A stretch of DNA of 64,000 nucleotides from a virus, in the IMG/VR virus record IMGVR_UViG_3300036766_002181, positions 180,716-244,715 of that record. One strand, given 5' to 3'. A program made the position numbers and the translations under genes. This document shows, one piece after another, positions 30,018 through 51,849 of this stretch (its first letter is position 1; every line of letters begins with the position of its first letter). Under the pieces are notes generated by a model, which made no database searches, was not told the origin of the DNA, and saw nothing but the letters and a program-made list of their open reading frames with translations.

Positions 30018-30023
30018 ATGGAA

Positions 30024-30299: not shown

Positions 30300-30784
30300 T
30301 ATTTGATTTCCTCTAGCCTATTAAAGACCTCTGCAAAAACATCTTCTTTTGTGTGGACATAGGTAAAATAAGATCTGCCCAGCATGGGAATATAAAATTC
30401 AAATTCATATCGAATCTCCTTCTTCTCAGGAGCAATAAGAGATCTCTCGCCCATGTAAAGCAGAACCGAGTTATAAAAAACTGCTCCTCTATTGGAAATA
30501 AGAATATTTGGATTTTTCTTTATATAATCGCTGGAAAAAATTGTAATGAATGCCCTGTTATTATACATTCCCATCATTGTTGCTGGACCAACAAGACTTG
30601 GTGCCTTGTTAGTTGTAACGACAGAATTATCATCATCATTTTTCTTTTTAAGAAACGGCGTACGAAACAGAGTTATGCAATAAAAGGATTTGTCATCCTC
30701 CGAAGGAGACAAATGAGGGCTTCCCTGGTCTGATCTTACTTTAAACAGGGTTCCTGCGGCAGGATAGGAAGAAATATAAGACAT
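30299..30784 (-). CDS. PGxLY-family protein, long form
   Basis: 161 residues: AAGTLFKVRSD, a long inserted loop, RAFITIFSSDYI, VLLYMGERSLIAPE, and a helical end. The longer spacing between motifs is its own variation. Confidence 0.7.
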   Translation of the reverse strand: MSYISSYPAAGTLFKVRSDQGSPHLSPSEDDKSFYCITLFRTPFLKKKNDDDNSVVTTNKAPSLVGPATMMGMYNNRAFITIFSSDYIKKNPNILISNRGAVFYNSVLLYMGERSLIAPEKKEIRYEFEFYIPMLGRSYFTYVHTKEDVFAEVFNRLEEIK

Positions 30785-30801
30785 TTGTAATATGACTTAT
30801 T

Positions 30802-31125
30802 TTAACACATTTCCTCAAGTGAGTCAAGAAGGCACTGAATGGCAGCATTATGGTCATAATGGTAGTAAATTGTAGGATAATATACATTCATGTTTTTCTT
30901 GGGATCATAAAAAGTATATTCACGAGAACAAGAGACAGAATCTCTGATCCTGTCTTCTATCCTTAGCAATATTAAGATATCGCCTGAATCATAGGAAAGT
31001 AGCTCCGTCCAGCTTGGTTGAAGAAAGTAGTGATTGGGTTGTTTTACCTCTATATAAAATTCTGCATATCTTCTTGTTTTATATAATTTTCCAGGAACCA
31101 AGGCATCAAGACTTTTATTGGTCAT
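30802..31125 (-). CDS. PGxLY-family small protein
   Basis: 107 residues from ATG 31125: LVPGKLYKTRR, DILILLRIED, YTFYDPKKNMNVYYP, then a helical tail ending LDSLEEMC. Resembles the next copy (YVFYD, FDCLKQI), so both share the FYDxxxN variant of the last motif. Confidence 0.82.
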   Translation of the reverse strand: MTNKSLDALVPGKLYKTRRYAEFYIEVKQPNHYFLQPSWTELLSYDSGDILILLRIEDRIRDSVSCSREYTFYDPKKNMNVYYPTIYYHYDHNAAIQCLLDSLEEMC

Positions 31126-31453
31126 GGGATATTTGTTTAAGGCAATCAAAAAATTCTCCTACCTCTGTCTCTTGTCCAGCACCGCAAAAAAGTTGAGAAT
31201 GGTAGACTGTTGTGTTTTCCATTAGATCATAAAAAACATATTCTTCAAGTTCGTTTAGTTTACTTTCTGGTACAAACTTAAGGATGCCCTGTTTGTATAT
31301 ATTTCTTTTTAAAAAGATTAAAATAGAATCCTGATCACGAGATGTAACCTTGTTATCTGATTCATAGGTTTTTGTTATTGGGCTATAATAAAAGTACATG
31401 GTCTTAGTTGGTCTGTAAGCCTCGCCCTCGATTAATAATAACTTATTTGCCAT
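31115..31453 (-). CDS. PGxLY-family small protein
   Basis: 112 residues from ATG 31453: LIEGEAYRPTK, SILIFLKRNIY, YVFYDLMENTTVYHS. Proline and leucine of the motif are Glu and Ala here. Confidence 0.8.
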   Translation of the reverse strand: MANKLLLIEGEAYRPTKTMYFYYSPITKTYESDNKVTSRDQDSILIFLKRNIYKQGILKFVPESKLNELEEYVFYDLMENTTVYHSQLFCGAGQETEVGEFFDCLKQISHDQ

Positions 31454-31890
31454 ACTGGCCAACAGTCCCAGCGAGCAGTGTTAGGGATTCGATAAAATCT
31501 ATTTCATATAAATCGCTTGACAAAAGGATAGAAAATAGCCTTGTGTTTAGGGCTGGAGAATAAAAAACATATTCAACAATCATGTTTCTTTTAAACTTTT
31601 TCTTCTCTGCGTGCGAATAAAACTCATATTCTATCATCTTCTCTAGAGTATATTCGTTTATACTAAGAAACACAAGAATGTCACTGGCATGGAGAAGATG
31701 ACTTGGAACTTTGCTATCAACCATTTTATCTCGCCTCTTTCCATCTTCTTCTGCTGAGCAATAAAAGAAATCTGATATACCTCTTTCCATCTTCTTCTGC
31801 TGAGCAATAAAAGAAATCTGATATACCTTTTTCTGCCCTATAAAGACTTCCTGGCACAGGAATAGGAATCATATTATCATTGCTATTCAT
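31443..31890 (-). pseudogene. PGxLY-family gene broken by a 46-bp tandem duplication
   Basis: From ATG 31890 the frame reads PVPGSLYRAEKGISDFF then a 46-bp segment (31741-31786) and its near-copy (31787-31832) shift the frame. Removing one unit gives a continuous 133-codon protein: SLYRAEK, DILVFLSINEY, EYVFYSPALNTRLFS. Without it only a 115-codon 3' part is open, lacking the N-terminal motif. Confidence 0.75.
31741..31832 (-). repeat. 46-bp tandem duplication inside a coding region
   Basis: Two adjacent 46-base units that differ at one position. Forty-six is not a multiple of three, so copy number decides the frame. Confidence 0.9.
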
Positions 31891-31892
31891 GG

Positions 31893-32236
31893 TTAATCTG
31901 TTATTTTTTCTAGGCGGCTTTTAAAAAGACTATCATGCGAATATGGCCCTCCATTATCAACATAGTGCTGAGAATAAATTTTTGCATTCTTTATAGGCAA
32001 ATAAAAACAGTGTTGTCTGTAGTTTATATTACGAATATTTTTTATTCTGGTTGACAAATAAATCAGAGGACTTTCATCGGAAACACAGCAGGCGTCAAGA
32101 CCAAATCGAGGAGAATCTAAATGGGGCCGAAGATAAAAAATAATCTGTTGCATTCATCAAAGGCCTGAGTTTTTTTAATAATAAACAAGGAGCCAGGAGC
32201 AAGATCATTCTCTTTGGCTTCTTTAATTTTTAGCAT
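31893..32236 (-). pseudogene. PGxLY-family copy with A6-tract frameshift
   Basis: From ATG 32236 (overlapping the upstream stop) the frame gives DLAPGSLFIIKKTQ then leaves the pattern at an A6 run on the plus strand (32135-32140). One extra base there joins it to FYLRPHLDSPRFG, LIYLSTRI, CFYLPIKNAKIYS. Length is 3n-1, consistent with a one-base loss. The remaining 86-codon ORF lacks the N-terminal motif. Confidence 0.75.
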
Positions 32237-32589
32237 ATTCTTATCATGTTCTTATTTTTTAACAGATTTTCTTCAAACAAGTAATCATTATAACCATAAT
32301 GATAGCTGTATATCCACTGATTTGTGGATAGATTTAAAAACGTATATCTACAAAGAATAGACTTTGATTCACTCGGCCTAGATGTTTGTTGAAAGAATTC
32401 AGAGTCATTGGCATATATAAGCTTTTCAACAAATAAAAAGATGCTATTTTTAGAATTGATGGAACTAAAACTAACTGGTATATTTTTGTCAGAGGAAGGG
32501 ATATAAGGCGCAGACAAACCACCAAGATGGCCAAGGATTATGAGAGAATATAAACAACCTGGAATAAATTTGTCTTTTTGGTCTAGCAT
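32230..32589 (-). CDS. PGxLY-family small protein
   Basis: 119 residues: FIPGCLYSLII, SIFLFVEKLIY, YTFLNLSTNQWIYSY, ending KNMIRIC. Sister of the next gene upstream (FFNISTRASLYVY, KRMVKIC). Confidence 0.82.
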   Translation of the reverse strand: MLDQKDKFIPGCLYSLIILGHLGGLSAPYIPSSDKNIPVSFSSINSKNSIFLFVEKLIYANDSEFFQQTSRPSESKSILCRYTFLNLSTNQWIYSYHYGYNDYLFEENLLKNKNMIRIC

Positions 32590-32930
32590 ATTTTTACCAT
32601 TCTTTTAGAAAAAAGATAGTTTTCAAGACTAGAGATATTTCCTGTATAAACATACAGAGAAGCCCTGGTTGATATATTAAAAAAAGAATATTTCCATAGC
32701 ATAAAACCCTGATGATTTGTCATGTCATCTGGACCTTTATTTAAAAACATTACAGTTTCGCCCTGGTATAAACCAATGGTTTGTTTGCTGCTGGTCGGCG
32801 TATATGGAAACCTCCATCCATACAGTTCGGATTGTCCTGTAAACATATACAGAGATCCCGGAACAAAAGTGAGAGGTTTAGGTTCTGTGCAATTATCAGT
32901 GTCCAACATTATATTGGCCCTCTTAAACAT
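32583..32930 (-). CDS. PGxLY-family small protein
   Basis: 115 residues: FVPGSLYMFTG, ETVMFLNKGPD, YSFFNISTRASLYVY. The start overlaps the previous gene by about 20 bases; an internal ATG (MLDTDN) could be used instead. Confidence 0.82.
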   Translation of the reverse strand: MFKRANIMLDTDNCTEPKPLTFVPGSLYMFTGQSELYGWRFPYTPTSSKQTIGLYQGETVMFLNKGPDDMTNHQGFMLWKYSFFNISTRASLYVYTGNISSLENYLFSKRMVKIC

Positions 32931-33289
32931 GACAAAAGTCTTTTTTCAATCTCTTCAAACTCTCCAAACAATTCAGACCAAATATAGGGCCTGACAAGAT
33001 TTTCCTTTAGAGTGCCCACACTTCCCAACAAAAAACGATATTCCACGCATAGCTGTCCATCATATACGATATCAACGGTTCTTACGTCCAATGGAATAAG
33101 AAGAGATTTCATGGGAAGAACAAATCCATTGCCTAAAGATTCTGACAGGTAGGGAGTTGCGAAAAAGTGTTTCATCTGGACTTTCTTGCCTGGATCTTTT
33201 TCTTCTTCACCATTCTCCTTTGCGGTCCATAGATACAATTCTCCTGGAATCAGGCCATCTTCCCTATCATCAAAAAGAGAAACTTTCAT
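32909..33289 (-). CDS. PGxLY-family small protein
   Basis: 126 residues: LIPGELYLWTA, SLLIPLDVRT, DIVYDGQLCVEY, then a long helical tail. Overlaps both neighbours by a few bases. Confidence 0.8.
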   Translation of the reverse strand: MKVSLFDDREDGLIPGELYLWTAKENGEEEKDPGKKVQMKHFFATPYLSESLGNGFVLPMKSLLIPLDVRTVDIVYDGQLCVEYRFLLGSVGTLKENLVRPYIWSELFGEFEEIEKRLLSCLRGPI

Positions 33290-33585
33290 AGCAATGAAAC
33301 CTTCTGTATACCAAGCATTCCATTTGTAATGCCCCTTTCAAGCACAATTAATTTTCCATCGAAAATAAAAACAGGTTCTAGACTCTCGTTTCTTTTTTCA
33401 TATTCATGATAAAGGGAGTATCCAAGAAACATACCAACCTGATCGTCGTCTCGAATAATTCTCCAATTAGCACTAAGATCCTTATGTAGTTCTGTGGTTA
33501 TTCTTTGAATTGGTCTGTAGTTGATACCAAGTGGCAACTCATACAGTTCCCCAGGAATGAAAGGACTATTTGTTGCAAGGGTCAT
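33286..33585 (-). CDS. PGxLY-family small protein
   Basis: 99 residues: FIPGELYELPL, QVGMFLGYSLY, PVFIFDGKLIVLERG. Shares NYRPIQR/IYKPSQW and EPxFIxxGKL with the next copy, so they are sisters. Confidence 0.85.
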   Translation of the reverse strand: MTLATNSPFIPGELYELPLGINYRPIQRITTELHKDLSANWRIIRDDDQVGMFLGYSLYHEYEKRNESLEPVFIFDGKLIVLERGITNGMLGIQKVSLL

Positions 33586-33926
33586 AATGGACCAATCGTA
33601 ATTTTCGCAAATTCTTCTGTTTCCGAGTAGGATATAAAGGGCATTGCGACCAATTTGCCATTAAGAATAAAGATTGGCTCCATAGAACCATAAGGCAAAT
33701 AACTAGAAATTGTTATAAACATGGCCGTTTCAAGCTTTCTTGTTTCAAACCAATCAGAATCTACCGGGGCCTTTCCATCAGACTTGTCTGTGTGGCTTGG
33801 ATGTTGGTTGTTTGAGGTTTTTGCCCACTGGCTAGGTTTATAGATAATACCAGGAGGAATTTTGTAAAGACTTCCAGCAATAAAAAGATGCTGCTGATAA
33901 CCTTTTCCATCTGCCAGATCAGTCAC
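33582..33926 (-). CDS. PGxLY-family small protein
   Basis: 114 residues: FIAGSLYKIPPG, ETAMFITISSY, PIFILNGKLVAMPF. Overlaps both neighbours by four bases (ATGA). Confidence 0.85.
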   Translation of the reverse strand: MTDLADGKGYQQHLFIAGSLYKIPPGIIYKPSQWAKTSNNQHPSHTDKSDGKAPVDSDWFETRKLETAMFITISSYLPYGSMEPIFILNGKLVAMPFISYSETEEFAKITIGPL

Positions 33927-34228
33927 AAGGATGCCCTTCTTCTTACTTTTTCAGAATCTATTAAAGTAAGACATGCAAAGTTGTCTCTATATCTGTTTCT
34001 CGGATATGACAAGGAATATATTACTTTTCCATTTGCTGTATTAAAAAATCTGTGTTGCAGGCTTCCAATCGATTGATTTATATAAATCAAAACGTGGTCC
34101 TCTTCTACCCAGGTTTTATCGTCTAAAAAAATATTACCTGCGGGATTTAAAAACATCAAAATTCTTTTATACTCGGGCTTAATTTTATATAATTCACCGG
34201 GAGTAAAAAAATTATTGTTTGTTTTCAT
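33923..34228 (-). CDS. PGxLY-family small protein
   Basis: 101 residues: FTPGELYKIKPEY, HVLIYINQSIG, FFNTANGKVIYSL. Basic tail. Confidence 0.85.
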   Translation of the reverse strand: MKTNNNFFTPGELYKIKPEYKRILMFLNPAGNIFLDDKTWVEEDHVLIYINQSIGSLQHRFFNTANGKVIYSLSYPRNRYRDNFACLTLIDSEKVRRRASL

Positions 34229-34586
34229 TGTTAACCTCTATCATCTCTATCATCTCTATCATCTCTATCATCTCTATCCAAAAATCAAGGTTCCTTCTTG
34301 GAAACGTGCCAGTATACCCAAATCGACCATGCTCAATATCAAAAACAAAAAGTTCCATAACCGATGAATCTGAAGATGAATCGGAAGATAAAAAAAGAAG
34401 ACTAACAAATACAAAAATAGAGCCGGGCTTACAGTCCCAGGATTTATTTTTGTTCCTTATGAAATTCAACGGATAGACAGGTTGTTCTATAGAACAATTA
34501 AAGATTCGAAAATTTGTTTTAAATCTATATAGATTTCCAGGAACAAGTCCTAACAAGGGTGCATACTTTTTGGCAGGAGCATTCAT
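34212..34586 (-). CDS. PGxLY-family protein with EMI repeat tail
   Basis: 124 residues from ATG 34586: LVPGNLYRFKT, SIFVFVSLLFL, ELFVFDIEHGRFGY. The tail is four to five EMI triplets encoded by a 9-bp tandem repeat at about 34229-34270. Confidence 0.8.
   Translation of the reverse strand: MNAPAKKYAPLLGLVPGNLYRFKTNFRIFNCSIEQPVYPLNFIRNKNKSWDCKPGSIFVFVSLLFLSSDSSSDSSVMELFVFDIEHGRFGYTGTFPRRNLDFWIEMIEMIEMIEMIEVNNENKQ
34229..34270 (-). repeat. 9-bp in-frame tandem repeat
   Basis: CTCTATCAT repeated more than four times. Unit is three codons, so changes in copy number would keep the frame and lengthen the EMI tail. Confidence 0.9.
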
Positions 34587-34632
34587 TATTGTTAACAATC
34601 CAGTCTTTTAAGATGCCTCTTCTAGAAGGACG

Positions 34633-35328: not shown

Positions 35329-35643
35329 ATGAATGCGCTAAGTCAATCCTATTTACAAACAGACGATTTTAAATTTAAGCTCGGAAATTTATATCGGTTA
35401 AATCTAATAGGAAAAGACACCGCATACAGACGGGTCTTTCCACTTACTACTAAAAACGAAATTTCACTGTTGTACAAGGAAGGATTTTCTATTTTAGATG
35501 GAGAAACTTTAATGGTAGTGGATTTTTTTACATCAGAAAGTAATATTCCAATTTTTCTTTGTCATGGAAAAAGGGTTTATGTGGATTTCCAGGCAAGAAG
35601 AAATCTGTTGTTTGAGATTTCTACAGAAGACAAGGAATTGTGA
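35329..35643 (+). CDS. PGxLY-family small protein
   Basis: 104 residues: FKLGNLYRLNLIG, ETLMVVDFFTS, PIFLCHGKRVYVD. Has its own promoter directly at the start. Confidence 0.82.
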   Translation: MNALSQSYLQTDDFKFKLGNLYRLNLIGKDTAYRRVFPLTTKNEISLLYKEGFSILDGETLMVVDFFTSESNIPIFLCHGKRVYVDFQARRNLLFEISTEDKEL

Positions 35644-35656
35644 GGCCTTTTGGTAT

Positions 35657-35980
35657 ATGAAAACAAAAAAGAAAAAAGACGCCTTCTTAAAGCCAGGAAG
35701 CCTTTATCGGCCGAGCAAAAAATCATGGGCCTTTATGCAATCAATATATTGTGGTGCAATTGATCCGGTTGCTTCCTTTAAATACAATGAATACAGAGAT
35801 TTTTTTAGAGCATCTTACTGGGCAAATATAGATTCTATCGGTATATTGATGTTTATTAAAAAGCTTCGCTTGAGGGAAGATGGGAATATCTACCCAATTT
35901 TTCTCGATCAGAAAGGACGGTATATTTGTCTTGGCGGGGTTTATGATGATTCCTGTTTTGACGAAGTAAGAGAAGAATAA
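35657..35980 (+). CDS. PGxLY-family small protein
   Basis: 107 residues from ATG 35657: FLKPGSLYRPSKK, GILMFIKKLRL, PIFLDQKGRYICLGG. Confidence 0.85.
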   Translation: MKTKKKKDAFLKPGSLYRPSKKSWAFMQSIYCGAIDPVASFKYNEYRDFFRASYWANIDSIGILMFIKKLRLREDGNIYPIFLDQKGRYICLGGVYDDSCFDEVREE

Positions 35981-35989
35981 AAAAGAGAT

Positions 35990-36283
35990 TTATAGTACAA
36001 AGAGTTTGAAGGTATTAAAAAGCCTTTTTTCTGTTGATTTATTTGCAAGCCAAGAATAAACAATTCTTTGTTTATCAGGAGAATAAAATTCAATTTCTTT
36101 TAAGTTATTGCCTTCTACAAGAGAAGAAGAAACTTTTTTTATGCTGATAAAAATTAATAGAGTTCCTTCTGGCAGGGCGATTGTGGGCTCATGAGATGGA
36201 GATATAGAATAGGACACATAATAGAAATTATCGATTTCTGTAGTTTTATACAGACTTCCCCTAACAAACTTATTATCATTCAT
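35990..36283 (-). CDS. PGxLY-family small protein
   Basis: 97 residues from ATG 36283: FVRGSLYKTTE, TLLIFISIKK, IEFYSPDKQRIVYS. Converges on the previous gene. Confidence 0.82.
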   Translation of the reverse strand: MNDNKFVRGSLYKTTEIDNFYYVSYSISPSHEPTIALPEGTLLIFISIKKVSSSLVEGNNLKEIEFYSPDKQRIVYSWLANKSTEKRLFNTFKLFVL

Positions 36284-36319
36284 ATAGAGCCAACCTGTAT
36301 TCCTCAACTGCGGCACTTT

Positions 36320-36451
36320 CTAGTGCTGATTTTTATAAAGGCTCGTGACATGGGTTCTGATTACAGGCATACATTGACCACACGTTGGAGAATCTTCTTC
36401 GTCTAAACCACTTGCATCATCAGTACAATAAGCACATTGCAGAGTTTTCAT
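36320..36451 (-). CDS. 43-residue zinc-binding protein
   Basis: MKTLQCAYC ... CGQC gives a CxxC-x(14)-CxxC knuckle in a very short protein. Its ATG overlaps nothing but lies one base past the stop of the gene at 36453, in the same transcript. Confidence 0.6.
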   Translation of the reverse strand: MKTLQCAYCTDDASGLDEEDSPTCGQCMPVIRTHVTSLYKNQH

Positions 36452-36452
36452 T

Positions 36453-36662
36453 TTAAACCTTCTTTAGAAAGAAGATCCTTGTTGTTGGCTTGTCAGACTC
36501 ATAATAACAACTGCCATAGTCCGTTTCCGTGCGAACATGTGTCGTTCCCGCAGGAGCCTCGATTGTTTGATCACAATTCTCGAAATGAGAATCCTCTCCC
36601 AAGATTTCAAATCCAGGAAAGCGTGGCACAACTGGTTCTCTATGTTGGCGATATCTTGGCAT
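36453..36662 (-). CDS. hypothetical protein
   Basis: 69 residues with a compact beta-rich look (PRFPGFEILGEDSHF, PAGTTHVRTETDYGSCYYE). AAAGAGAG precedes the ATG. Probably the first coding gene of the transcript that starts near 37175. Confidence 0.55.
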   Translation of the reverse strand: MPRYRQHREPVVPRFPGFEILGEDSHFENCDQTIEAPAGTTHVRTETDYGSCYYESDKPTTRIFFLKKV

Positions 36663-37386
36663 TAAAATTGTCTCTCTTTCTTTTCTTCTATTTGATCGAG
36701 ACTCAGAGGGCAGCTTGGACTCGCAACTTAGGTTGTTACCAAGATCTACAGGCTAATGGCCTATTGCTCTTTAACTCGGTGCAGAAACTCCGGTAGACTC
36801 TGTTTCCAGGAAAAAATTCTAGACTCCCTTCCTGGCTTTTCTGAGTTAATGCATTTGCTGCTTGAACTACAACCCTCTCAATCTCGATTAAAATTTCTAT
36901 TTTGTTGTTTTGTTTCTATTCAAAGTCTGTTACCCAAAAAAGGAGTCGAACCTTTTATTTTTCAGCAACCCTTCTTTTCATTCTACGAAAAATTACACGG
37001 AAGAGAAGTCGTATCTGAAAAACGCCACCACACTCGGGCATAAAAAGAAAAAACATATTGGCGGAAATATTAACGACCTTTCCTCTTGTCACTGGTACGG
37101 TCAGGCAGGGACCAATCTGTTTTTTCTATTCTCTCTCTGTCTGTCTTTGCCTGTGTCGGTTCCCTTTGTTTTGATAAGTCGAATATAACATATTCAAGCC
37201 TGGTGTCAAGAATCTTTTGACATATTCAATAAAATAATAAGGGCGTATCAAGCAGGATACCTCCCATAGTAACCAAAGGTAGGAGATTGTCCTACATGCA
37301 AATACAGGCCGGCTTTCCGCACTTTTCAGGCCTTCTGGCCCTTCCAGACTTTCCAGATTTATTTTCATCAATTTGTTAAAAAGAAC
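36663..37386. other. non-coding leader region with RNA-like features
   Basis: No convincing protein gene. A minus-strand promoter at 37182-37209 would transcribe about 500 bases of this region before the gene at 36662. On that strand a T-arm-like helix (AAAGG/CCTTT around TTCGACT, 36938-36956) is flanked by TTGGGTA/TGCCCGA, but the 110-base span and lack of a sound anticodon arm stop me from calling a tRNA. A CCAGGAA/TTCCTGG hairpin lies near 36808-36838. Confidence 0.45.
37182..37209 (-). promoter_or_regulatory. sigma70-like promoter (leftward)
   Basis: On the minus strand: TTGACA 37209-37204, 16-base spacer, TATATT 37187-37182. Two CATATTCAA motifs (37189-37197, 37221-37229) overlap or flank it. 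Confidence 0.6.
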
Positions 37387-37414
37387 TTGTTTTTGAATTA
37401 GTTTAGATTATAAT
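37387..37414 (+). promoter_or_regulatory. sigma70-like promoter for amidoligase 1
   Basis: TTGTTT 37387-37392, 16-base spacer, TATAAT 37409-37414; the first usable ATG is at 37434. Confidence 0.65.
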
Positions 37415-37433
37415 GATATTCATCCAATCAAGG

Positions 37434-38591
37434 ATGCCAGGGAGAAACGACAAGATGCCAACCCTTCCGACCGCCGCCAGTGTTCGCCAGTGTTCGATTT
37501 GCCAGGTTATTGGCCACAACAGCCGCACCTGTCCTTCAGAGGCTGCCGTTGCTCTTCGTGGTGTCGTTCCTGCCGAGCTTGTTGCCTCAATCCGCTCTAA
37601 CCGTACCTTTGGCATCGAAGTCGAGTTTATCGGTTCCATGCAACGTGCTGCCGATGCCCTGAACCAGGCCGGGATTCCTTGCAGCGTCCAGGGCCACAAC
37701 CACTCGGTTTGTACGGCTTGGAAGGTCGTCACGGATGGTTCGGTGTCTGCCGGGGGTGAGCTTGTCTCCCCAATTCTCTCAGGCGCAGAAGGCCTTACAA
37801 CGGCTTACAAGGCCGTTCGTGCTCTTGCCGCCGCAGGTCTGTCGGCCAATCGTTCATGCGGCCTGCATGTTCATGTTGGGGCTGTCGATACGACTTCTGA
37901 GAAGCGTCTTTCGATTGCCCGGCGCTATGCCAAGTTTGAATCCCAGATTGATTCTTGGATGGCTCCTTCACGCCGGGCCAATGCCAGCCGATGGTGCCAG
38001 TCGATTATCGGTAGGACAGAGGGAACCAATCCTTCGATTCTTAATGATCGCTATTTCAAGGTCAACCTGACCGCCTTTAGCCGTCACCAGACCATTGAAT
38101 TCCGTCAGCATCAGGGTACGGTCAATGCCAAGAAGGTCTGCAACTGGGTCAAGTTCTGCGTGAACTTCGTGGAAGAGTCGCTTAATCGTTTGGTGTCTCC
38201 TGTCCAGCAGGAAACCCCTGTTTCGACCTGCCGTGTCGATAATGACATTCGTCTTACCCGCAGCCTTAACCGCATGGTTCAATACTTGGAGAGCCGTGGA
38301 ATTGCTTGCACCTCTGCGGACGTGCTTGCTCGTGACTGCAACGTTGGTTCCACGACGGTTGCGGTCATGATTTCTAACCTTCGCACCCGTTACGGCTACC
38401 AGATTTCACATCGTCGTGGCCAGGGCTACAGGCTGGTTAGCTCGCCTCTTGCTACTCGCCAGACGCTTGTCCCTGTCGTTGCTCCTGTTGCGCCCATGGC
38501 CGACGATTCCAGCCCCCTGGTTGGCCTGGACTTGGAGGCGACTCGCTTCTTCGCCGGCCGAGTGCAAGGCGTTGCAGTGACGGCAATTTAA
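37434..38591 (+). CDS. zinc knuckle-amidoligase-winged helix protein 1
   Basis: 385 residues (ATG 37455 also possible). A CCHC zinc knuckle (CSICQVIGHNSRTC, about 20-33) precedes an amidoligase_2-type domain: FGIEVEFIGS, GGELVSPILSG, CGLHVHVGA, IEFRQHQGTVNAKKVCNW. The last 100 residues hold a winged-helix-like segment (TTVAVMISNLRTRYGYQI, GQGYRLV). Amidoligases of the GCS/glutamine-synthetase-like fold join an amine to a carboxylate using ATP. GC-rich codon use contrasts with flanking PGxLY genes. Confidence 0.82.
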   Translation: MPGRNDKMPTLPTAASVRQCSICQVIGHNSRTCPSEAAVALRGVVPAELVASIRSNRTFGIEVEFIGSMQRAADALNQAGIPCSVQGHNHSVCTAWKVVTDGSVSAGGELVSPILSGAEGLTTAYKAVRALAAAGLSANRSCGLHVHVGAVDTTSEKRLSIARRYAKFESQIDSWMAPSRRANASRWCQSIIGRTEGTNPSILNDRYFKVNLTAFSRHQTIEFRQHQGTVNAKKVCNWVKFCVNFVEESLNRLVSPVQQETPVSTCRVDNDIRLTRSLNRMVQYLESRGIACTSADVLARDCNVGSTTVAVMISNLRTRYGYQISHRRGQGYRLVSSPLATRQTLVPVVAPVAPMADDSSPLVGLDLEATRFFAGRVQGVAVTAI

Positions 38592-38603
38592 CGAGAAGAA
38601 ACA

Positions 38604-38906
38604 ATGCCCATGGTGACAAATAAGAAAACAAGCAAACGTGCGAGAACGGAGCTTGTTAAGAAAGCAAGGCCAGGATCACCGTGGAAGGCAGCATGGCCTT
38701 TAAAGGTCTATGATGATAGCGAATCCAGCAAGTTCAAAACCTGCACCTTAAATGAAGGTGAAATTTTTATGATTATAGGTGTTCTAAACTTGCCAGGGAC
38801 ACAGGTACCGGCCTTGAAGATTCTTATACCAAAAACAGGCCAAATTTATTTAGACTGTTTTCGTAAAGATGAAATTATAGAGGTTTGCAGCAATGGCAAC
38901 AAGTAA
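38604..38906 (+). CDS. divergent PGxLY-family protein
   Basis: 100 residues: ARPGSPWKAAWPL, EIFMIIGVLN, ALKILIPKTGQIYLD. The motif reads PGSPW. Starts twelve bases after the amidoligase and overlaps the next gene by 14 bases. Confidence 0.65.
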   Translation: MPMVTNKKTSKRARTELVKKARPGSPWKAAWPLKVYDDSESSKFKTCTLNEGEIFMIIGVLNLPGTQVPALKILIPKTGQIYLDCFRKDEIIEVCSNGNK

Positions 38907-39156
38907 TAACAAGTTAATTCCAGGAGAATTATACAGATTAGATCCAGAATTTCATAGTAACCTGGAAGTACATTTTGAATTTCGTGTCTGTCCAGTTGAT
39001 CCTAGATCATATGAGGATTTTGTTCTTGGCTATATACTCTTGGATAGCGATATTCTTATGGCCCTATCTAGCATTGATGGAGGAATGTTTTTATATGAAG
39101 GCGAAAAAGTTAAAATCGGCGGCCAATGGCTGAATAGGCTTGAAAGAATCTCATGA
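38893..39156 (+). CDS. PGxLY-family small protein
   Basis: 87 residues: LIPGELYRLDPEF, DILMALSSIDG, MFLYEGEKVKIGG, LERIS. The LERIS ending is shared by the next gene. Confidence 0.85.
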   Translation: MATSNNKLIPGELYRLDPEFHSNLEVHFEFRVCPVDPRSYEDFVLGYILLDSDILMALSSIDGGMFLYEGEKVKIGGQWLNRLERIS

Positions 39157-39473
39157 CAAAGAAGCTCGTTATTAACGATTGGTATCTAGAGGAGGCCAAC
39201 AGACTTTTAGACATACTAAAGATAGGAAAGTTGTATTGCTATAAACCAAACGCCACAACAAGTGCTAATTCCCCATGGAATCCTCTTAACCCAGACGGCC
39301 TACCAACTTTGGGAATAATCTATTATCCTGTGGGACAAGAAATATTATTGTTGGTAAGATTTGTGGAGAAAAACTCCTGGATTAATAGAAGTTATCCCAT
39401 GTTTCTTCATAATGGCCAACTTTTTTATATTAGCGTTATCCACCAAAGTATGCTTGAAAGAATCTCGGCATGA
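39153..39473 (+). CDS. PGxLY-family small protein
   Basis: 106 residues: LKIGKLYCYKPN after a 20-residue helix, EILLLVRFVEK, PMFLHNGQLFYIS, MLERISA. Overlaps both neighbours by four bases. Confidence 0.83.
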   Translation: MTKKLVINDWYLEEANRLLDILKIGKLYCYKPNATTSANSPWNPLNPDGLPTLGIIYYPVGQEILLLVRFVEKNSWINRSYPMFLHNGQLFYISVIHQSMLERISA

Positions 39474-39493
39474 AAGATAGAAAAATAAGGTTA

Positions 39494-39757
39494 ATGAACA
39501 ATAACAAAATTGTTCCAGGAGAATTGTATTGTTATACTACTCTTGAAAATGACCAGGATTATTATGTTTGGCCCATCGATATACAATTCAAATTTAACAA
39601 GACCGCCTACTTTGGCGGATTTAAAGTTTCAAACAAAACAATTCTGTTGGCCTTGGCAATGCATATCGGCATATCCAGACTAAACGTATTTTTGTATCAG
39701 AATACAAAGGTTGTTACTAACCATTTTTATCAGGACCAACTTAAAAAGATTTCTTAA
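39494..39757 (+). CDS. PGxLY-family small protein
   Basis: 87 residues from ATG 39494 (a start at 39470 overlaps the previous stop): IVPGELYCYTTLE, TILLALAMHIG, NVFLYQNTKVV. Confidence 0.83.
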   Translation: MNNNKIVPGELYCYTTLENDQDYYVWPIDIQFKFNKTAYFGGFKVSNKTILLALAMHIGISRLNVFLYQNTKVVTNHFYQDQLKKIS

Positions 39758-39765
39758 CACTTAAA

Positions 39766-40044
39766 ATGTCAACAGCGCCATTATTATTGTCCAGCAAGAA
39801 CCCTATTCCAGGAAGTTTATATAGACTTGATAGACGCTATGATTATGCGCATTGCATTTATGTTTACAACCCAGCAACGAGAACGGCCAAGACTGAAACT
39901 TATCTCGATTATAAAGGGGCCGATTTTATTCTGCATATTTGCCATATTGGTAAACCATGGAATGAACTATGGTTATATAACAATCAATTGGTTGTATTGG
40001 TATTGTTTTGCGAACAGAAGCTAATCGAGGCTTCATGTCTATAA
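39766..40044 (+). CDS. PGxLY-family small protein
   Basis: 92 residues: PIPGSLYRLDRRY, DFILHICHIGK, LWLYNNQLVVLVL. Confidence 0.83.
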   Translation: MSTAPLLLSSKNPIPGSLYRLDRRYDYAHCIYVYNPATRTAKTETYLDYKGADFILHICHIGKPWNELWLYNNQLVVLVLFCEQKLIEASCL

Positions 40045-40271
40045 AACACAAAAATAGAGAAGGTACCATTTGGAGACTTATGCAAAGTCATAATCTTTAT
40101 TATTCACATGAAAGCGTGGTTGGGCAAATGGATGAGGCCTTTATTATTTTAAATAAATCAGTTTATTCTTCATATGAAGATAATATTTGGTGGCATGTCT
40201 ACTTGATAGAAAGCAAAAAAGTCGGAGAGATCTCAGAAAGAAGCCTGTTAATCGTCGGCAGAGAATTATAG
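40035..40271 (+). CDS. PGxLY-family small protein
   Basis: 78 residues from ATG 40035: NREGTIWRLMQSH, EAFIILNKSVY, VYLIESKKVGEI. Degenerate first motif (EGTIW). Confidence 0.72.
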   Translation: MSIKHKNREGTIWRLMQSHNLYYSHESVVGQMDEAFIILNKSVYSSYEDNIWWHVYLIESKKVGEISERSLLIVGREL

Positions 40272-40274
40272 ATT

Positions 40275-40517
40275 ATGATTTCTCCATGGTGGATTAGATT
40301 TGGCGGACTTTATGCTTTAAAACATTCTGGATATCTTCTAAAAGAAGAGGACGACAACACGTCTGCCCATGAAGCCTTTAAAGGGAAAACCATTTTTATT
40401 CCCTTGTGTGAATGGCCGCATCATCAACGATATATTTCTTGTTTTTGCTTATATAATGGGAAAAAATATCTGATAGACAGACTTTATTTTTATGATACTT
40501 TTCATTTTATCTCCTAA
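40275..40517 (+). CDS. PGxLY-family small protein
   Basis: 80 residues: RFGGLYALKHSG, KTIFIPLCEWP, FCLYNGKKYLIDR. Last gene of the rightward run; meets the tail-chaperone gene tail to tail. Confidence 0.78.
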   Translation: MISPWWIRFGGLYALKHSGYLLKEEDDNTSAHEAFKGKTIFIPLCEWPHHQRYISCFCLYNGKKYLIDRLYFYDTFHFIS

Positions 40518-40710
40518 GCTTTGGTGGAGCAAAAACATGGTGCTTTCCTAGCATTGCCCTTAATGAAGGATCATTGTGATGCGCCGCATGGGTAGGAACA
40601 TCTGAATTGCCGCCCCCCTGTTCCTGGCTCTTCTTAATCTCGTCGTTAAGACGCTTCATCGTCCAACGTCTATAGGCAATCGGGAAGTTATAATAGGTTT
40701 CCCAAGACAT
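40507..40710 (-). CDS. tail chaperone 3' part (frameshift extension) or separate small protein
   Basis: 67 residues from ATG 40710 (ETYYNFPIAYRRWTMKRLND). The frame is open upstream to 40777, into the end of the gp26-like gene, and encodes EPFFNLAYYFG just before the ATG, so it continues a protein rather than starting one. In tail assembly chaperones this kind of W/R-rich segment is added by ribosomal frameshift. Confidence 0.65.
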   Translation of the reverse strand: MSWETYYNFPIAYRRWTMKRLNDEIKKSQEQGGGNSDVPTHAAHHNDPSLRAMLGKHHVFAPPKLRR

Positions 40711-40759
40711 TCCAAAATAATATGCCAGATTAAAGAATGGTTCTAAAAGAATCTCTTCT

Positions 40760-41671
40760 CTATGCTCGTTTTTTAGGCCAAAAGAAATCCGAAGACATTG
40801 GCAATTGGATCTTTTCGGAATGATCGCAACTTGCGCAAATGAATTCTACCTCCATGTCTACGCCTGGCTCATTGGCGTCAATATATTCTCTAAGAGCCCG
40901 GCTATCCTGGGCCCTTAGATAATTAACAAACTTTGCAACATGACCCGGACTTGAGTTTCCATTAACAGAAAGAATTTGCGAAGAAAGGCGAGTTGTAACA
41001 ATGTTTGTGTTGGCCTGGCCTCTCTTTCTTTTTGTTTCAAGTTCCTTAATAATCTTTTCTTCTTCCTCGCCGGTTAAAAACTTAAATTCAACTCTTAGCT
41101 TTGAAACAGGTAAATCAAAACCAAAGACATTCTGTCCTGGAACAGACGGCTCAAGTTCTAGTGGTTTGACCGCAAGGTTTGCAAGATCAATATTCATTTC
41201 ATTCTTGTGCTCGCACTGAGGGCAGTCAAAGGTTGGCTGATATTCTCTGCCATAGCCTGAAATTCTTATACCGACCATTAGGGCATTTCTATCTCCTGAA
41301 AGAAGAGATGAAACGTTAATGCTTTTATCAATTAGACTTGACTTAATAAGTTCTGTAATAACCGTGCCCTTTTTAATAAGGCCCTGACTCATAAGAATGT
41401 CTTCTTCTCGGGCTGTCATTGCCCTATACTCAACCTGCGCAGCACCATGCAAAGGATGACCTTCAGGATATACCTTGCCGGACGAGGGAAGCGGAACCGC
41501 ATCTACAGGAATATCAAAGCCAAACTCTTTTTTGGCATAGTCTTCTCTTGAAACCGAAGCCATTCCTCCACCACCAGATAGGGCAGAAAATACTTCATTT
41601 CCTTTTCTTACCTCTGTTGCTGCTGTGGTCTGTTGTTCGCTATCTTGTTGTTCTGAGGATGATGATGCCAT
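40760..41671 (-). CDS. T4 gp26-like baseplate/tail assembly protein
   Basis: 303 residues. A Ser/Gln/Gly-rich start (1-45) leads to LPSSGKVYPEGHPLHGAAQV (62-81) and ISGYGREYQPTFDCPQC (137-153); a second pair, CASC (279-282), completes a four-cysteine zinc site. This pattern fits the T4 baseplate hub gp26-type family. It ends FFWPKKRA just at an A6 slippery run, where a +1 (or -2) shift would join it to the gene at 40507-40710. Long helices around 205-215 (EEEEKIIKELETKRKRG) are charged. Confidence 0.78.
   Translation of the reverse strand: MASSSSEQQDSEQQTTAATEVRKGNEVFSALSGGGGMASVSREDYAKKEFGFDIPVDAVPLPSSGKVYPEGHPLHGAAQVEYRAMTAREEDILMSQGLIKKGTVITELIKSSLIDKSINVSSLLSGDRNALMVGIRISGYGREYQPTFDCPQCEHKNEMNIDLANLAVKPLELEPSVPGQNVFGFDLPVSKLRVEFKFLTGEEEEKIIKELETKRKRGQANTNIVTTRLSSQILSVNGNSSPGHVAKFVNYLRAQDSRALREYIDANEPGVDMEVEFICASCDHSEKIQLPMSSDFFWPKKRA
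40769..40774 (-). promoter_or_regulatory. candidate programmed frameshift site
   Basis: CCT AAA AAA CGA GCA TAG: a +1 slip on AAA continues as AAC GAG CAT AGA with no stop through to 40507. Confidence 0.6.
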
Positions 41672-42431: not shown

Positions 42432-42574
42432 GATTTGAGGCCCTTTCTGAGTTGTCTGTGTCCTGATGGCCGTCAGGAATACCAAGGGCTCAGAACGGCT
42501 CCCAGAGGCCTTGGAGGGGCAAGGTTTAAGGCTCTTGTCTCGACAGTAGAAGGTTTGTTTTGGTCCCTCAAATC
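42432..42574 (+). ncRNA. structured RNA element (sRNA or amidase leader)
   Basis: A 9-bp perfect terminal stem, GATTTGAGG (42432-42440) with CCTCAAATC (42566-42574), closes 143 bases. Inside, TTCTGAG pairs with CTCAGAA around the hairpin TCCTGA/TCAGGA, CCAAGG can pair with CCTTGG, and TGTC/GACA forms a further small hairpin. No ORF covers it. A single long rod-like RNA with hairpins is reminiscent of 6S-like RNAs or of a cis leader for the endolysin gene 25 bases downstream. Confidence 0.6.
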
Positions 42575-42598
42575 AAAGGAGAAAAGGAGTCACTATTT

Positions 42599-43303
42599 AT
42601 GATTAATCATATTATGAAAATAATAAATTATAAACTTTATAATGACGACGATTCTGCGGTGCAGTTTATAAACAGTCCAAATCAGTCTGTTGGAATTGCC
42701 CACAAATATCTCATAATGCATTACACCGCAGCCAATTCGTTAAATGGAGCAATTCAAACTCTTACGAACAAGGCAGCCAAGGCATCTGCTCATCTTATTA
42801 TAGATAAAGATGGAAAGACCGTGCAGCTTGTTGACTTTAATCACAAGGCCTGGCACGCCGGATCGTCTACCTGGAAAGATTTGGTTGGCATGAATGCCTA
42901 TAGCCTTGGTATAGAGTTGGTTAACTCTGGCCCTCTTCGTCAAGATCAATCGGGCCAGTTTAAAACATGGTATGGAGAGGTCATTCCAAAGGACCAGGTT
43001 CAAATGGTAGAATTTAAAGGAAAAATATCTGCCTGGCAAGAGTATCCAGAGGCACAGTTAATGAAAGCCATAGAAATTGGACATCTATTGTTTGAAGAAT
43101 ATAAGCTTATTGATGTTTTGGCACATTCGGATATTGCACCCAACCGAAAACAAGACACAGGCCCTGCCTTTCCCATGGACTCTTTTCGTTCTAAAATGTT
43201 GGGTAGAGAGTCAGACACTCTTGATACTGGCCCCATTACGCACATAGAGGTTCCAAAATTTGTTTATTGGCAACAACAACCATCACCATCGCCAATAAAG
43301 TAA
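42599..43303 (+). CDS. N-acetylmuramoyl-L-alanine amidase (endolysin)
   Basis: 234 residues from ATG 42599, behind AAGGAG at about 42575-42580 and AAAAGGAG at 42581-42588. Amidase_2/AmpD fold: LIMHYTA (first zinc His), AHLIIDKDGKTVQLVD, KAWHAG, YSLGIELVN and VLAHSDIAPNRKQDTGP (second His and Lys/Asp site). It cleaves the peptide from MurNAc in peptidoglycan. No signal peptide or cell-wall domain is seen, so a holin is needed. Confidence 0.85.
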   Translation: MINHIMKIINYKLYNDDDSAVQFINSPNQSVGIAHKYLIMHYTAANSLNGAIQTLTNKAAKASAHLIIDKDGKTVQLVDFNHKAWHAGSSTWKDLVGMNAYSLGIELVNSGPLRQDQSGQFKTWYGEVIPKDQVQMVEFKGKISAWQEYPEAQLMKAIEIGHLLFEEYKLIDVLAHSDIAPNRKQDTGPAFPMDSFRSKMLGRESDTLDTGPITHIEVPKFVYWQQQPSPSPIK

Positions 43304-47722: not shown

Positions 47723-49402
47723 TTATGTCAATCGAGCCAATCGGGCACGCTCTGTTCGACAAGAAAAACAATTGCAGGGCAGATCATTTACACCCACAAC
47801 ACTTGCCTCAATATTACTAATATCATTATTTAGGTTTCTATCGGCCCTAATAGACAGGTTGGTTTGAGCCATGTTCGGCACGGTGGTATTGATATAAACG
47901 CTAGGAGAGGCAACAGGCGGTCTTGCTCGGCCTGGCCGACGAAATAGCTCGGGCGGGGGAATAAATCCAAAATTCATGCCATCTTCTCCATTGTCGGGAG
48001 GAGCAAGAGGAGGAGGAGGAGGAGGAGGAGGAGGAGGATCGACATAGTTTATAGTAATGCCACTTGCCGGACGATTCATAGGAGCGGCAACTTCGCCGGC
48101 AGCGACAAGGGAGTTAACTCGATCATTGCTGTTTAGTTCTAGATCTTCATTATCAAAGTCTGGGGAAGGAGCATCAGGCGATTCTCTCTGATTTCCTCGT
48201 GCAAGAGAGGCAAGCATTCTACGATTATAAAAGTCTGCCGAGTCAGAATCTAGGCCTCTCCAATATCTGTCTGACTCGGCAGTAATGGCAAGACCTTCGG
48301 TATCAGTACCTGTTGTGGCCAGTGCAACAGGTACTGTTGCAACTTGGCCCCTTCTTCTACGAGGAGGTCTAGGAATATATGGAACTGCCGGCAGCATCAT
48401 ATTGCCAAATCTATAGACATAGTATTCTCTGTTCCTGTATCTTGCCTCAATATCAAATCCAAACTGATTGACAAGCCTTTTTATCGTAGTAATAAGCACA
48501 CGAGAAGACATGCCTGTAGTTGTCGAGGCTCTTTGAATGTTGAGTAAGACGTGTCCTCTGGGTGGACAATGGTGGTAGTATGTGTTCATTGTTAGAGCAG
48601 AAGGCCTTCTGCTCGGAGGAAGCTGGCTGTTATCTTCTTGTTCAATATCAAGACAATATTGAATAAGTTTGTTAAAGTTTTGCATTCCTCTTGTGCCAAT
48701 TGGATAAAATGGCGTAACATAGGTGTCTCTGCCACGCCTTCTCTGTGCCCTCTCGGCACCTGTAAAGGGAAACTCTTCTGTATAAAGCGAACAATTTTTG
48801 CCGGCCTCGACAAAGTTAACACAAAACTTAATCCAGTTAGAAATCTTTTTAATGTTCAGGGTTCCATGATGGTGTCGAAATTCAATTGTCCTGTGTCTCT
48901 GATAGGCGGCAAGATTAATCTTAAAATAACGATTATTATAAATGTTAGAATTTCTAATAGGAGAGAGAGATCTACAATAGGTGTTTAATTCTCCTCTTCT
49001 TGAGGGAGCCATAAGATTGTCAATTTGAGATTCAAAGTGTCCATAACGCCGGGCAATGTTTAGGCGTTCGATGGGAGACAGATCTCCTGCGTCTACGTGA
49101 ACATGTAGACCACAGGTAGAATTAACTCTTGCTCCTGCTGCCACAAGGGCCGCAACGGCAATTTTAACCTGCTCTAGACCAGCCTCGCCGGACAGGGGAG
49201 GAGAAACAAGCTCTCCACCATGGCCATTGTTGCTTCTAACCGAACCATCTGTGGTAATTTTCCAGGTCGTAGAGGTTCGATGATTATAGTCCTGAACGTC
49301 ACAAAAAATATTTCTGGCATTTAAGGCCTCTGCCGCCGTGTGTAGAGAAATCCAGGTAAATTCAATTTCTACACCAAATCTTCGGTCGCTAGCAATTGCC
49401 AT
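47723..49402 (-). CDS. amidoligase-winged helix protein 2, long form
   Basis: 559 residues. Amidoligase_2-type motifs start at the N-terminus: FGVEIEFTW, GGELVSPPLSG, CGLHVHVDA, PSRRGE, IEFRHHHGTLNIKKISNW. The N-terminal zinc knuckle of the other two is missing; instead CNCFSC lies near the C-terminus. A winged-helix-like region (ASTTTGMSSRVLITTIKRLV) is followed by a 200-residue disordered part with a run of ten prolines from a (GGA)n-type microsatellite at about 48003-48037. Confidence 0.8.
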   Translation of the reverse strand: MAIASDRRFGVEIEFTWISLHTAAEALNARNIFCDVQDYNHRTSTTWKITTDGSVRSNNGHGGELVSPPLSGEAGLEQVKIAVAALVAAGARVNSTCGLHVHVDAGDLSPIERLNIARRYGHFESQIDNLMAPSRRGELNTYCRSLSPIRNSNIYNNRYFKINLAAYQRHRTIEFRHHHGTLNIKKISNWIKFCVNFVEAGKNCSLYTEEFPFTGAERAQRRRGRDTYVTPFYPIGTRGMQNFNKLIQYCLDIEQEDNSQLPPSRRPSALTMNTYYHHCPPRGHVLLNIQRASTTTGMSSRVLITTIKRLVNQFGFDIEARYRNREYYVYRFGNMMLPAVPYIPRPPRRRRGQVATVPVALATTGTDTEGLAITAESDRYWRGLDSDSADFYNRRMLASLARGNQRESPDAPSPDFDNEDLELNSNDRVNSLVAAGEVAAPMNRPASGITINYVDPPPPPPPPPPLAPPDNGEDGMNFGFIPPPELFRRPGRARPPVASPSVYINTTVPNMAQTNLSIRADRNLNNDISNIEASVVGVNDLPCNCFSCRTERARLARLT

Positions 49403-49520: not shown

Positions 49521-49739
49521 TTATGCCAAATTCCGCTGTGTCAAGTTTGTGTATTGAAGAAATTTAAGCTGAATTACGGTTCTGTCTAAATTAACAAGTC
49601 TTTTTTCTTTTATTGAATATGCTGTAAAGAAATTGCCTTGGCGACTAGAGCTCATGCATACAAAATAGTAGGGTCTTAATGGTTTGCGGTCTGTTTTTGC
49701 GAGACTAAATAAGTCACCAATTTTGGGAAATTCAAGCAT
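49521..49739 (-). CDS. small protein of the divergent GDL subgroup
   Basis: 72 residues: PKIGDLFSLAKTD, PYYFVCMSS, FFTAYSIKEKRLVNL. Shares the order of strands with the PGxLY family but with IGDL in place of PGxL. Groups with the three genes that follow upstream. Confidence 0.65.
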   Translation of the reverse strand: MLEFPKIGDLFSLAKTDRKPLRPYYFVCMSSSRQGNFFTAYSIKEKRLVNLDRTVIQLKFLQYTNLTQRNLA

Positions 49740-49947
49740 AAATTGTCATAGTATTGAGATATTCTGGGCTCATAATCAGATATTTATGAGTTTGCAGTGA
49801 GTATACCTGAAACCAAATTGCTCCGTTGGAGTTTTTAATAGGTTTTAAAAATAGAAAATAAAACAATCTACCTCGAAACTCTCTGAAAAATATATTTCCA
49901 GACACCAAATTATTGGCCACTTCCCATAAGTCAATAGAATTAGACAT
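49732..49947 (-). CDS. small protein of the divergent GDL subgroup
   Basis: 71 residues: VSGNIFFREFRGR, FYFLFLKPI, WFQVYSLQTHKYLIMSPEY. The VYSLxxxK element recurs in its neighbours (AYSIKEK, VYSLEEK). Confidence 0.65.
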   Translation of the reverse strand: MSNSIDLWEVANNLVSGNIFFREFRGRLFYFLFLKPIKNSNGAIWFQVYSLQTHKYLIMSPEYLNTMTIYA

Positions 49948-49954
49948 TTTATCT

Positions 49955-50131
49955 TTAGAATGGGAGTGTTAAGTTTTGAAGATTGTGCCAACTTGTTTCT
50001 CCTAAAACATAGACGGCTTTTTCTTCTAACGAATATACAAAAAACCAAAATTCTGCATATGGACCCAAGTATATCATGTGCCGGCCGTTTTGATCTATCA
50101 ACAAATCTCCAGCGTTTACCGATTTAGACAT
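49955..50131 (-). CDS. small protein of the divergent GDL subgroup
   Basis: 58 residues from ATG 50131: VNAGDLLIDQNG, MIYLGPYAEFWFFVYSLEEKAVYV. Confidence 0.62.
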   Translation of the reverse strand: MSKSVNAGDLLIDQNGRHMIYLGPYAEFWFFVYSLEEKAVYVLGETSWHNLQNLTLPF

Positions 50132-50138
50132 CTTTCTT

Positions 50139-50378
50139 TTAATCTGGCGAAGAAATAACCTCAAAATTATCAAGATGTTCCATTAGAAAAAATCTGGTTG
50201 CATTGGATCTGCACGAATAGGCTGAGAAATAATCTAGGTCACTTGAGGTATGAGAAATATATATAAAGATTCCTTGTGTCCATTTAAATCCCCCAAGATA
50301 AGAGTTTTTATTAATCTGAATTAAATCTCCCTTTCTAGGCGGGCATTCACTAAGAGGAAGTACATTCTGAATGGCCAT
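50139..50378 (-). CDS. small protein of the divergent GDL subgroup
   Basis: 79 residues from ATG 50378: PRKGDLIQINKNS, GIFIYISHTS, YFSAYSCRSNATRFF. Confidence 0.65.
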   Translation of the reverse strand: MAIQNVLPLSECPPRKGDLIQINKNSYLGGFKWTQGIFIYISHTSSDLDYFSAYSCRSNATRFFLMEHLDNFEVISSPD

Positions 50379-50662
50379 CACAGTTTTTGAAATTCTAGAA
50401 TATGATTAACTGAAACAAAAGTAAACTTCTTCTCAGAAACGTGCAGGGCAACCATAAAGGTGTTGGTAATATACAGACACATAAATATACCACGATATTC
50501 AACGTATTTATCAAGCCAAGAATCTTTATGCAATTTAAACAGGCATCCCGGCTTAAAGGACTTGATGTGACATTGCTGATTGACCACCTCGTTCATACTC
50601 GCAAGCTTTGGGTTGTGGGGCCAGGAAGTATTTGTCCAGGCAGATGGATTGTTACCAGTCAC
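50378..50662 (-). CDS. PGxLY-family small protein, intermediate form
   Basis: 94 residues: FKPGCLFKLHKDS, GIFMCLYITN, VALHVSEKKFTFVSV. It has the classical PGxL motif but the IFMxxYI centre of the GDL subgroup, which links the two. Confidence 0.7.
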   Translation of the reverse strand: MTGNNPSAWTNTSWPHNPKLASMNEVVNQQCHIKSFKPGCLFKLHKDSWLDKYVEYRGIFMCLYITNTFMVALHVSEKKFTFVSVNHILEFQKL

Positions 50663-50852
50663 ATTCTTTTTCTCTTTCTCTCTGCCGCCTTATGCGTCTA
50701 CGCTCTTCGTGCTTATGCTTTTTGTGTTGCATGCGCTCATATTTGTTTGGAGGGACAGGCGAACCTTCATCAGAAGAGGAAGACGCTTCTTCTTCGCCGC
50801 CCTCTTCGTCGTCGGTGCCTTCAAAGAAAAAGAATTTATTTGAAAAAGTCAT
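50652..50852 (-). CDS. acidic-basic low-complexity protein
   Basis: 66 residues: FFFFEGTDDEEGG, acidic and Ser-rich middle, Arg/Glu/Lys-rich end. Overlaps the next gene by eleven bases. Real but uninformative. Confidence 0.5.
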   Translation of the reverse strand: MTFSNKFFFFEGTDDEEGGEEEASSSSDEGSPVPPNKYERMQHKKHKHEERRRIRRQREREKECDW

Positions 50853-51011
50853 TTTATGACCTATTTTTTTGAGGGAGAGAGTGAGGGAGATTAACAGTAA
50901 TAGACAGAATCGGAAATAAGTCGCACGTCACGCATGAAATATTCTGCGCCCATCCAAAGTATAGACAAATCAAATAGAATTTGCATTTTGTAGATGTTTT
51001 CCCTTTATTTG

Positions 51012-51254
51012 TTACGGAGCGGTTGGAGTCTTATACTTTCCATCTGGAAAACGTTCCTTGTCTCCCATTGGTTTTCGTGCAACCTTTTGTTTAAGGCCGT
51101 GGGCTCCATGACTGCCGCCTGTGCTTCTCTGAAGCAGCTTGCTGATGGTTCTTCCGCCCTGATTGCCAGCACAAGAACACGAGCGCAAGACTCGCTTGCA
51201 CCAATCACACCATGGAATTTTCTCGGTCTTTGTTGCTACTACAATATCGCCCAT
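51012..51254 (-). CDS. small CxxC protein
   Basis: 80 residues: PWCDWCKRVLRSCSCAG holds four cysteines in a tight cluster, followed by a Gly/Arg/Lys-rich tail (KPMGDKERFPDGKYKTP). A zinc-binding, possibly nucleic-acid-binding peptide. Confidence 0.55.
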   Translation of the reverse strand: MGDIVVATKTEKIPWCDWCKRVLRSCSCAGNQGGRTISKLLQRSTGGSHGAHGLKQKVARKPMGDKERFPDGKYKTPTAP

Positions 51255-51322
51255 TTTAGAATCCTCTGCTTTCCAGTTCTTTCAAAGTGTTAAGTATAAT
51301 ATCGCATATTTTTTTACAAATG

Positions 51323-51598
51323 TCAATAAGAAATCAATTCAAAAAAATACATAAAATCCTCTTTTATAACAACATTGCCAAAATATTTCTTATTATCTTT
51401 TGGACAATACAAAAGAAAGCCCTTTAGATCCTTTGTCGTTTCAATACAAACAAATTTTTCGCCAGCCTCAAAGTGCCTATAAACCGTTATAGCAGGATTT
51501 GGCTTTAGAGAATCACTCTGCCAAAATCCTGTACAGCCTATTAGTTTAATCAGGGATCCTGGCTTAAGACCTCTATTATCTTGAATGGTCACAGACAA
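51323..51598 (-). CDS. PGxLY-family small protein
   Basis: 91 residues: LKPGSLIKLIGCTG, EKFVCIETTK, GFLLYCPKDNKKYFG. Sister of the next gene (GFxLYCPKxNKKYxx, GEKFxx). Confidence 0.75.
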   Translation of the reverse strand: MSVTIQDNRGLKPGSLIKLIGCTGFWQSDSLKPNPAITVYRHFEAGEKFVCIETTKDLKGFLLYCPKDNKKYFGNVVIKEDFMYFFELISY

Positions 51599-51849
51599 GA
51601 AAAGACCCTGAAAAACCTATCGATCCGCGCATAATATTTTTTGTTAGTTTTGGGGCAGTATAGAATAAAGCCGCGCTTATCTATACCCTTGTTATTTGCA
51701 AGTAAAATAAATTTTTCGCCTGATTTAAAATTCTCGCAAGTGGGAAAATTAAAATTTGTTAACGGATCTTCCAGCCAAAATCCTGCATCTTGATTTAAAC
51801 AAATCAGGCTTCCTTCTTGTGCCGAATTTCTATTCTTTAGCATTTGCAT
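51589..51849 (-). CDS. PGxLY-family small protein
   Basis: 86 residues: AQEGSLICLNQDAG, EKFILLANNKG, GFILYCPKTNKKYYAR. Overlaps its sister by ten bases. Confidence 0.75.
   Translation of the reverse strand: MQMLKNRNSAQEGSLICLNQDAGFWLEDPLTNFNFPTCENFKSGEKFILLANNKGIDKRGFILYCPKTNKKYYARIDRFFRVFSCL

Follow-up and report, generated by a model that had tools for sequence, protein, structure and literature searches.

Tail assembly chaperones (TACs) produced by frameshifting have been reviewed, and the shift is -1, -2 or +1 depending on the phage (PMC5009743). P2 uses -1, Mu uses -2, and HSTV-2 very likely uses +1, and the lambda gpG/gpGT pair belongs to the same set (PMC5009743). In SPP1, the TAC gene has a putative -1 shift and the tube gene a +1 shift (PMC6316719). 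The +1 site of the bacterial release factor RF2 is CUU_U, with UUU_U in a minority (PMC5009743). The T4 proteins gp26 and gp51 appear in PMC3004832 as chaperones of hub assembly, and the T4-like gp26/gp51 proteins are treated as TACs (TAC-N / TAC-NC) by Vladimirov, Gautam and Davidson 2022, as cited in PMC10885494 and PMC12846349. According to these two citing accounts, some T4-like phages have two TAC genes, with polyT sites in use elsewhere. Sullivan 2010 (PMC3037559) noted that the first 200 residues are missing from cyanophage gp51. The T4-type gp26/gp51 pair had been presented as an exception and its frameshifting relatives as users of polyT -1 sites. A chaperone made in two forms by frameshifting is already known, and a +1 shift at UUU-UGG looks little described; a literature search of partial coverage found no published YUU_UGG +1 site and no +1 TAC clade.

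The putative chaperone gene and its +1 extension

We analyzed a 64,000-nucleotide stretch (the window) of the virus record IMGVR_UViG_3300036766_002181. A frame-0 open reading frame at 40760..41671 (-) encodes a protein of 303 amino acids ending in DFFWPKKRA. It matches PF12322 (1.2e-18, above the Pfam cut-off) and phrog_150 (baseplate hub; 7.3e-23), which bears out the first-pass annotation of the gene as gp26-like and of tail-chaperone type, with an N domain of the gp26/gp51 kind. This PF12322/phrog_150 protein would be a gp26-type TAC and the short form (TAC-N), and it presumably acts as a chaperone in the window phage. The N domain and the extension described below were modeled apart with AlphaFold. 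The N domain model has a pLDDT of 86, and its best matches among solved structures are weak: Bacillus subtilis YqbN (3klu; Z 5.6, 90 aligned, 8.3 Å) and the HK97 tail assembly chaperone (2ob9; Z 5.5, 84 aligned, 4.3 Å). No solved structure was found for this domain by sequence.

The 3' end of the frame-0 gene reads GAT TTC TTT TGG CCT AAA AAA CGA GCA TAG, with the stop at 40762-40760; CGA lies 3 bases before this stop and not 6, as had been stated. Open sequence in the +1 frame stretches from behind TAG 40848 to TAA 40509 and continues for 84 codons past the frame-0 stop. The extension proper, here called the T domain, covers 90 codons at 40510..40779 (-), from GGC to the codon before TAA 40509-40507, and is supported by the open frame, a family consensus and a predicted three-helix fold (helices at residues 5-23, 27-31 and 35-55; core pLDDT 85-91). 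No solved structure resembling it was found by sequence or by fold. The predicted long form has about 387 amino acids. The first ATG, GTG or TTG of the +1 frame in the window is ATG 40710, which corresponds to T-domain residue 25 and follows predicted helix 1, so that the mid-domain position initially noted for this codon holds. The reading frame that it opens (40507..40710, -) is probably not a separate gene, and the ATG is not conserved as a start.

Other genes were noted in the window. An amidase-type endolysin gene (42560-43303, +) lies near the chaperone gene. Three amidoligase-like genes occur within 16 kb, two matching phrog_2443 (37413-38591, +; 47723-49402, -) and one matching PF12224 (51920-53134, -). 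About 20 small open reading frames of 80 to 130 amino acids (29748-34598, -; 35329-40517, +; 49521-51849, -), seem to have arisen by tandem expansion of one family, and many share a PGELY/PGSLYK-like motif close to their start; no family match came from the few that were tested.

Conservation in relatives

Taken from one genome alone, the open +1 frame would be only moderately surprising. It is not a chance feature, since the same architecture recurs in relatives from metagenomes and in isolated phages. An initial IMG/VR scan returned 40 relatives, and the architecture was read in L001-L038 (L009 is cut at a contig end). In all of these the frame-0 stop lies shortly 3' of a TGG CCT and the T domain is in the +1 frame. 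Among 126 readable loci from later scans, the T domain is in the +1 frame in 122, in the -1 frame in 3 and in neither in 1. The proposal of a shift into the +1 frame is supported. The isolates with a +1 T domain include the Microcystis phage Mel-JY01, Flavobacterium phage immuto, Bacillus phage SP-15, Listeria phage LIS04, Streptococcus phage SagM-GXN1, and the Streptomyces phages Alone3, BRock, GiJojo and pSt2308.

Scan relatives, the window and phage records were dereplicated into 117 +1 clusters, which are set apart by a shared-word threshold that does not imply independence of descent. The +1 members taken together were too divergent for their alignment to serve as the seed of a scan. The T-domain consensus is FGLxP...ExxFxLxY..YNMPVxxR, and the conserved +1 peptide begins with FGL-x-P directly at the proposed slip site. 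For the Flavobacterium phage immuto, the predicted junction is VSFL-GLTPEYR for a +1 shift and VSFLFGLTPEYR for a -2 shift. The joined gene was absent from the annotation tables examined; in many phage genomes the long form would be misannotated as a separate small gene or missed.

The proposed slip site

The proposed +1 slip site is UUU_UGG_CCU at 40775..40783 (-), where the P-site codon UUU (40783-40781) would re-pair with the overlapping UUU (40782-40780). The motif YTT TGG CC(T/C) is carried by 99 of the 117 clusters, with TTT in 90, CTT in 9 and TTC in none. The phenylalanine codon in the P site of this group is therefore TTT in 90/90 cases (log10 p of -14.8 as a product of per-ORF TTT frequencies, over clusters defined by the shared-word threshold). 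The proline codon after TGG is CCT in 98/99; its fixed T can be attributed to dual coding, since the conserved FGL-x-P peptide begins at the site. The remaining 18 clusters mostly have TTT followed by C (Streptomyces phages, SP-15 and SagM-GXN1). The deviants among them are LIS04, LR756508 and L154; LIS04 (TTT TTT AGT) and LR756508 (TTT CTA TTC) re-pair only if the slip occurs one codon earlier.

All nine bases of the site are invariant among near relatives, and the substitution periodicity changes from that of frame 0 to that of the +1 frame at YTT TGG CCT (40783-40775 in the window). Upstream of the site, the frame-0 wobble position shows 0.42 to 0.55 differences per pair, compared to 0.08 to 0.34 at the other positions. 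Downstream, the +1 wobble position shows 0.36 to 0.54 differences per pair, compared to 0.08 to 0.26 elsewhere.

Programmed +1 sites usually, though not always, come with a stimulator, for example a Shine-Dalgarno-like element, a stop codon or a rare codon in the A site. No Shine-Dalgarno-like stimulator was found, with few GGAG/AGGA sites upstream of the slip site. Downstream RNA folding is weak and unconvincing (mean z of -0.8 against base shuffles), and the A-site codon UGG is not rare here (12 per 1,000 codons). The first-pass annotation had placed the slip on the A6 run at 40769..40774 (-). The overlap architecture that it proposed is kept in relatives, but the A6 tract is not; YTT TGG CCT just upstream is conserved instead. 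Transcriptional slippage on a T run was considered and rejected, as the run has only four T in the window and only three in the CTT members.

Direction of the proposed shift and alternative readings

The overlapping architecture, its conservation, the motif and the frame switch are all read directly in the sequences. From them we infer that the chaperone gene makes a short and a long form by a programmed +1 slip at UUU_UGG, a reading to which we assign a probability of about 0.85; the efficiency of slippage and the exact slip codon are likewise deduced from sequence. In a +1 shift, UUU re-pairs with UUU or UUC, and CUU re-pairs with UUU as in RF2. The initial proposal had left the direction as +1 or -2. 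A -2 shift on a TTTTTT run, as in phage Mu, would yield a product with one extra residue, and the TTT TTT TGG found in most members permits perfect -2 re-pairing. However, where the preceding codon differs, only the +1 shift re-pairs. In the TTC TTT members (the window, L008, L075, L077, L102, L117 and most of L181-L195) and in the CTG/CTA TTT members of the Streptomyces clade, the -2 landing codon (TCT, TGT or TAT) mispairs in the middle, whereas +1 lands on TTT or TTC. The CTT members do not discriminate between the two directions. The +1 half of the initial proposal is therefore favored, and a -2 shift is improbable, the window included.

A slip at another codon of the overlap, with YTT TGG CCT kept for a reason such as dual coding, is also unlikely, though slightly less so than the -2 shift. 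CCT is nearly invariant (98/99) and A6 would be a plausible local slip sequence, but CCU mispairs on CUN and A6 is not conserved. Moreover, the G-L residues conserved in the +1 frame come no later than the CCT and A6 positions, so that the constancy of CCT is explained by dual coding. It is more doubtful still that the second reading frame has a start of its own and is a distinct gene, translationally coupled to the first. Annotators do list small separate open reading frames, cyanophage gp51 being annotated likewise. In L190 and L196, both derived, an ATG sits right behind the stop; no other relative showed the two-gene arrangement with independent starts. Against such a gene, conservation starts at the slip site, the window ATG is mid-domain, and many clusters lack a common start codon: when the +1 frame is followed to 12 codons beyond the stop, ATG, GTG and TTG are all absent in 33/117 clusters and ATG is absent in 71/117. 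The window is known from a single contig, as a sequencing or assembly error or a decayed gene would allow, but the relatives refute this explanation, which we regard as having next to no chance of being right; the frame relation is the same in 117 clusters, and substitutions among near relatives are of the coding type in both frames.

Gene order and proposed function

In sequenced relatives the gene order is sheath, tube, chaperone gene, extension and tape measure, which is the TAC position and the place of the lambda G/GT genes. Unlike the contiguous cluster of the relatives, the sole gp19-like tube match on the window contig (G000:C1:101208-101513, below the cut-off) is some 120 kb away from the chaperone gene.

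Under the favored +1 reading, this large T4-related myovirus would make its chaperone in two forms. Most ribosomes would stop at TAG 40762 and release the short form. In a fraction of them, the peptidyl-tRNA-Phe on UUU (40783-40781), with UGG in the A site, would slip +1 onto the overlapping UUU. Reading would then continue as ..FF-GLKNEHREE.., adding a helical C-terminal domain to give a long form like lambda GT or T4 gp51. If the roles are those of lambda, coating of the tape measure would fall to the short form and recruitment of tube subunits to the long form.

Probable switches of direction within the family

The T domain behind gp26 is encoded in the -1 frame in Sf-FS3, a cyanophage, and in a dozen further phages that include several jumbo phages; among these -1 members are phiAS5, RaK2, PBECO4, BF, PA5oct and Atu_ph07. 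T_TTT_TTC/T/G is present in the overlap of 12/14 -1 members. The +1 and -1 T-domain profiles match each other (hhalign 95.6%, E of 1.1e-8, in a single comparison); the direct match of the +1 profile to T4 gp51 was not significant. An N-domain tree with long branches requires several changes of direction. Within the +1 clade, L129 uses -1 on A_AAT_TTC, where TTT TGG became TTC TGG, and in L190 and L196 the ATG described above has replaced the frameshift.

On balance, we favor the view that T4-type chaperones of a large clade shift +1 at an RF2-like site whose A-site codon is a sense codon (YUU_UGG). On this view, the homologous family has also changed repeatedly how it produces the long form, by +1 shift, -1 shift, gene split or gene duplication, each time at the same FF codons; the +1 to -1 change in L129 on A_AAT_TTC would be a recent case. 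This would be a family in which the slip direction changed during evolution. Its more than 100 natural variants of the RF2-like +1 motif without a stop codon offer material on what makes ribosomes slip forward.

Comparison with known systems

T4 gp26 (208 amino acids; PF12322, 8.8e-64) and gp51 (249 amino acids; PF12322, 3.9e-52) share the N-domain family of the window protein and likewise form a short and long pair. However, T4 uses two genes for the two forms, whereas the window clade has one gene and a predicted +1 shift. The C-terminal extension of T4 gp51 is related to phrog_634 (1.2e-23), a family also matched by the short gp51 of cyanophages (4.7e-25), and it is the -1 and cyanophage T domains that connect the T domain of the window clade to T4 gp51. 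The -1 members (Sf-FS3, RaK2, PA5oct and others) have a homologous N domain and an alignable T domain, and their slip is in the FF codons that end the N domain, as in the +1 clade. They slip on T_TTT_TTC/T (compare the polyT -1 sites in PMC12846349), whereas the +1 clade would slip on YTT_TGG or TTT_C. Lambda gpG/gpGT and its analogues also yield a short and a long form through a frameshift before the tape measure gene, but with other slip sites and directions and no apparent sequence homology to the window gene. The bacterial RF2 gene (prfB; CUU_UGA_C) shares with the window motif a P-site CUU (UUU in a minority) that moves +1 onto UUU, a U as the next base, and a C after the A-site codon. 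In contrast to RF2, where a UGA stop occupies the A site, a Shine-Dalgarno sequence acts as stimulator and the shift is autoregulatory, the window clade has the sense codon UGG, no Shine-Dalgarno sequence found and a predicted shift that is not autoregulatory.
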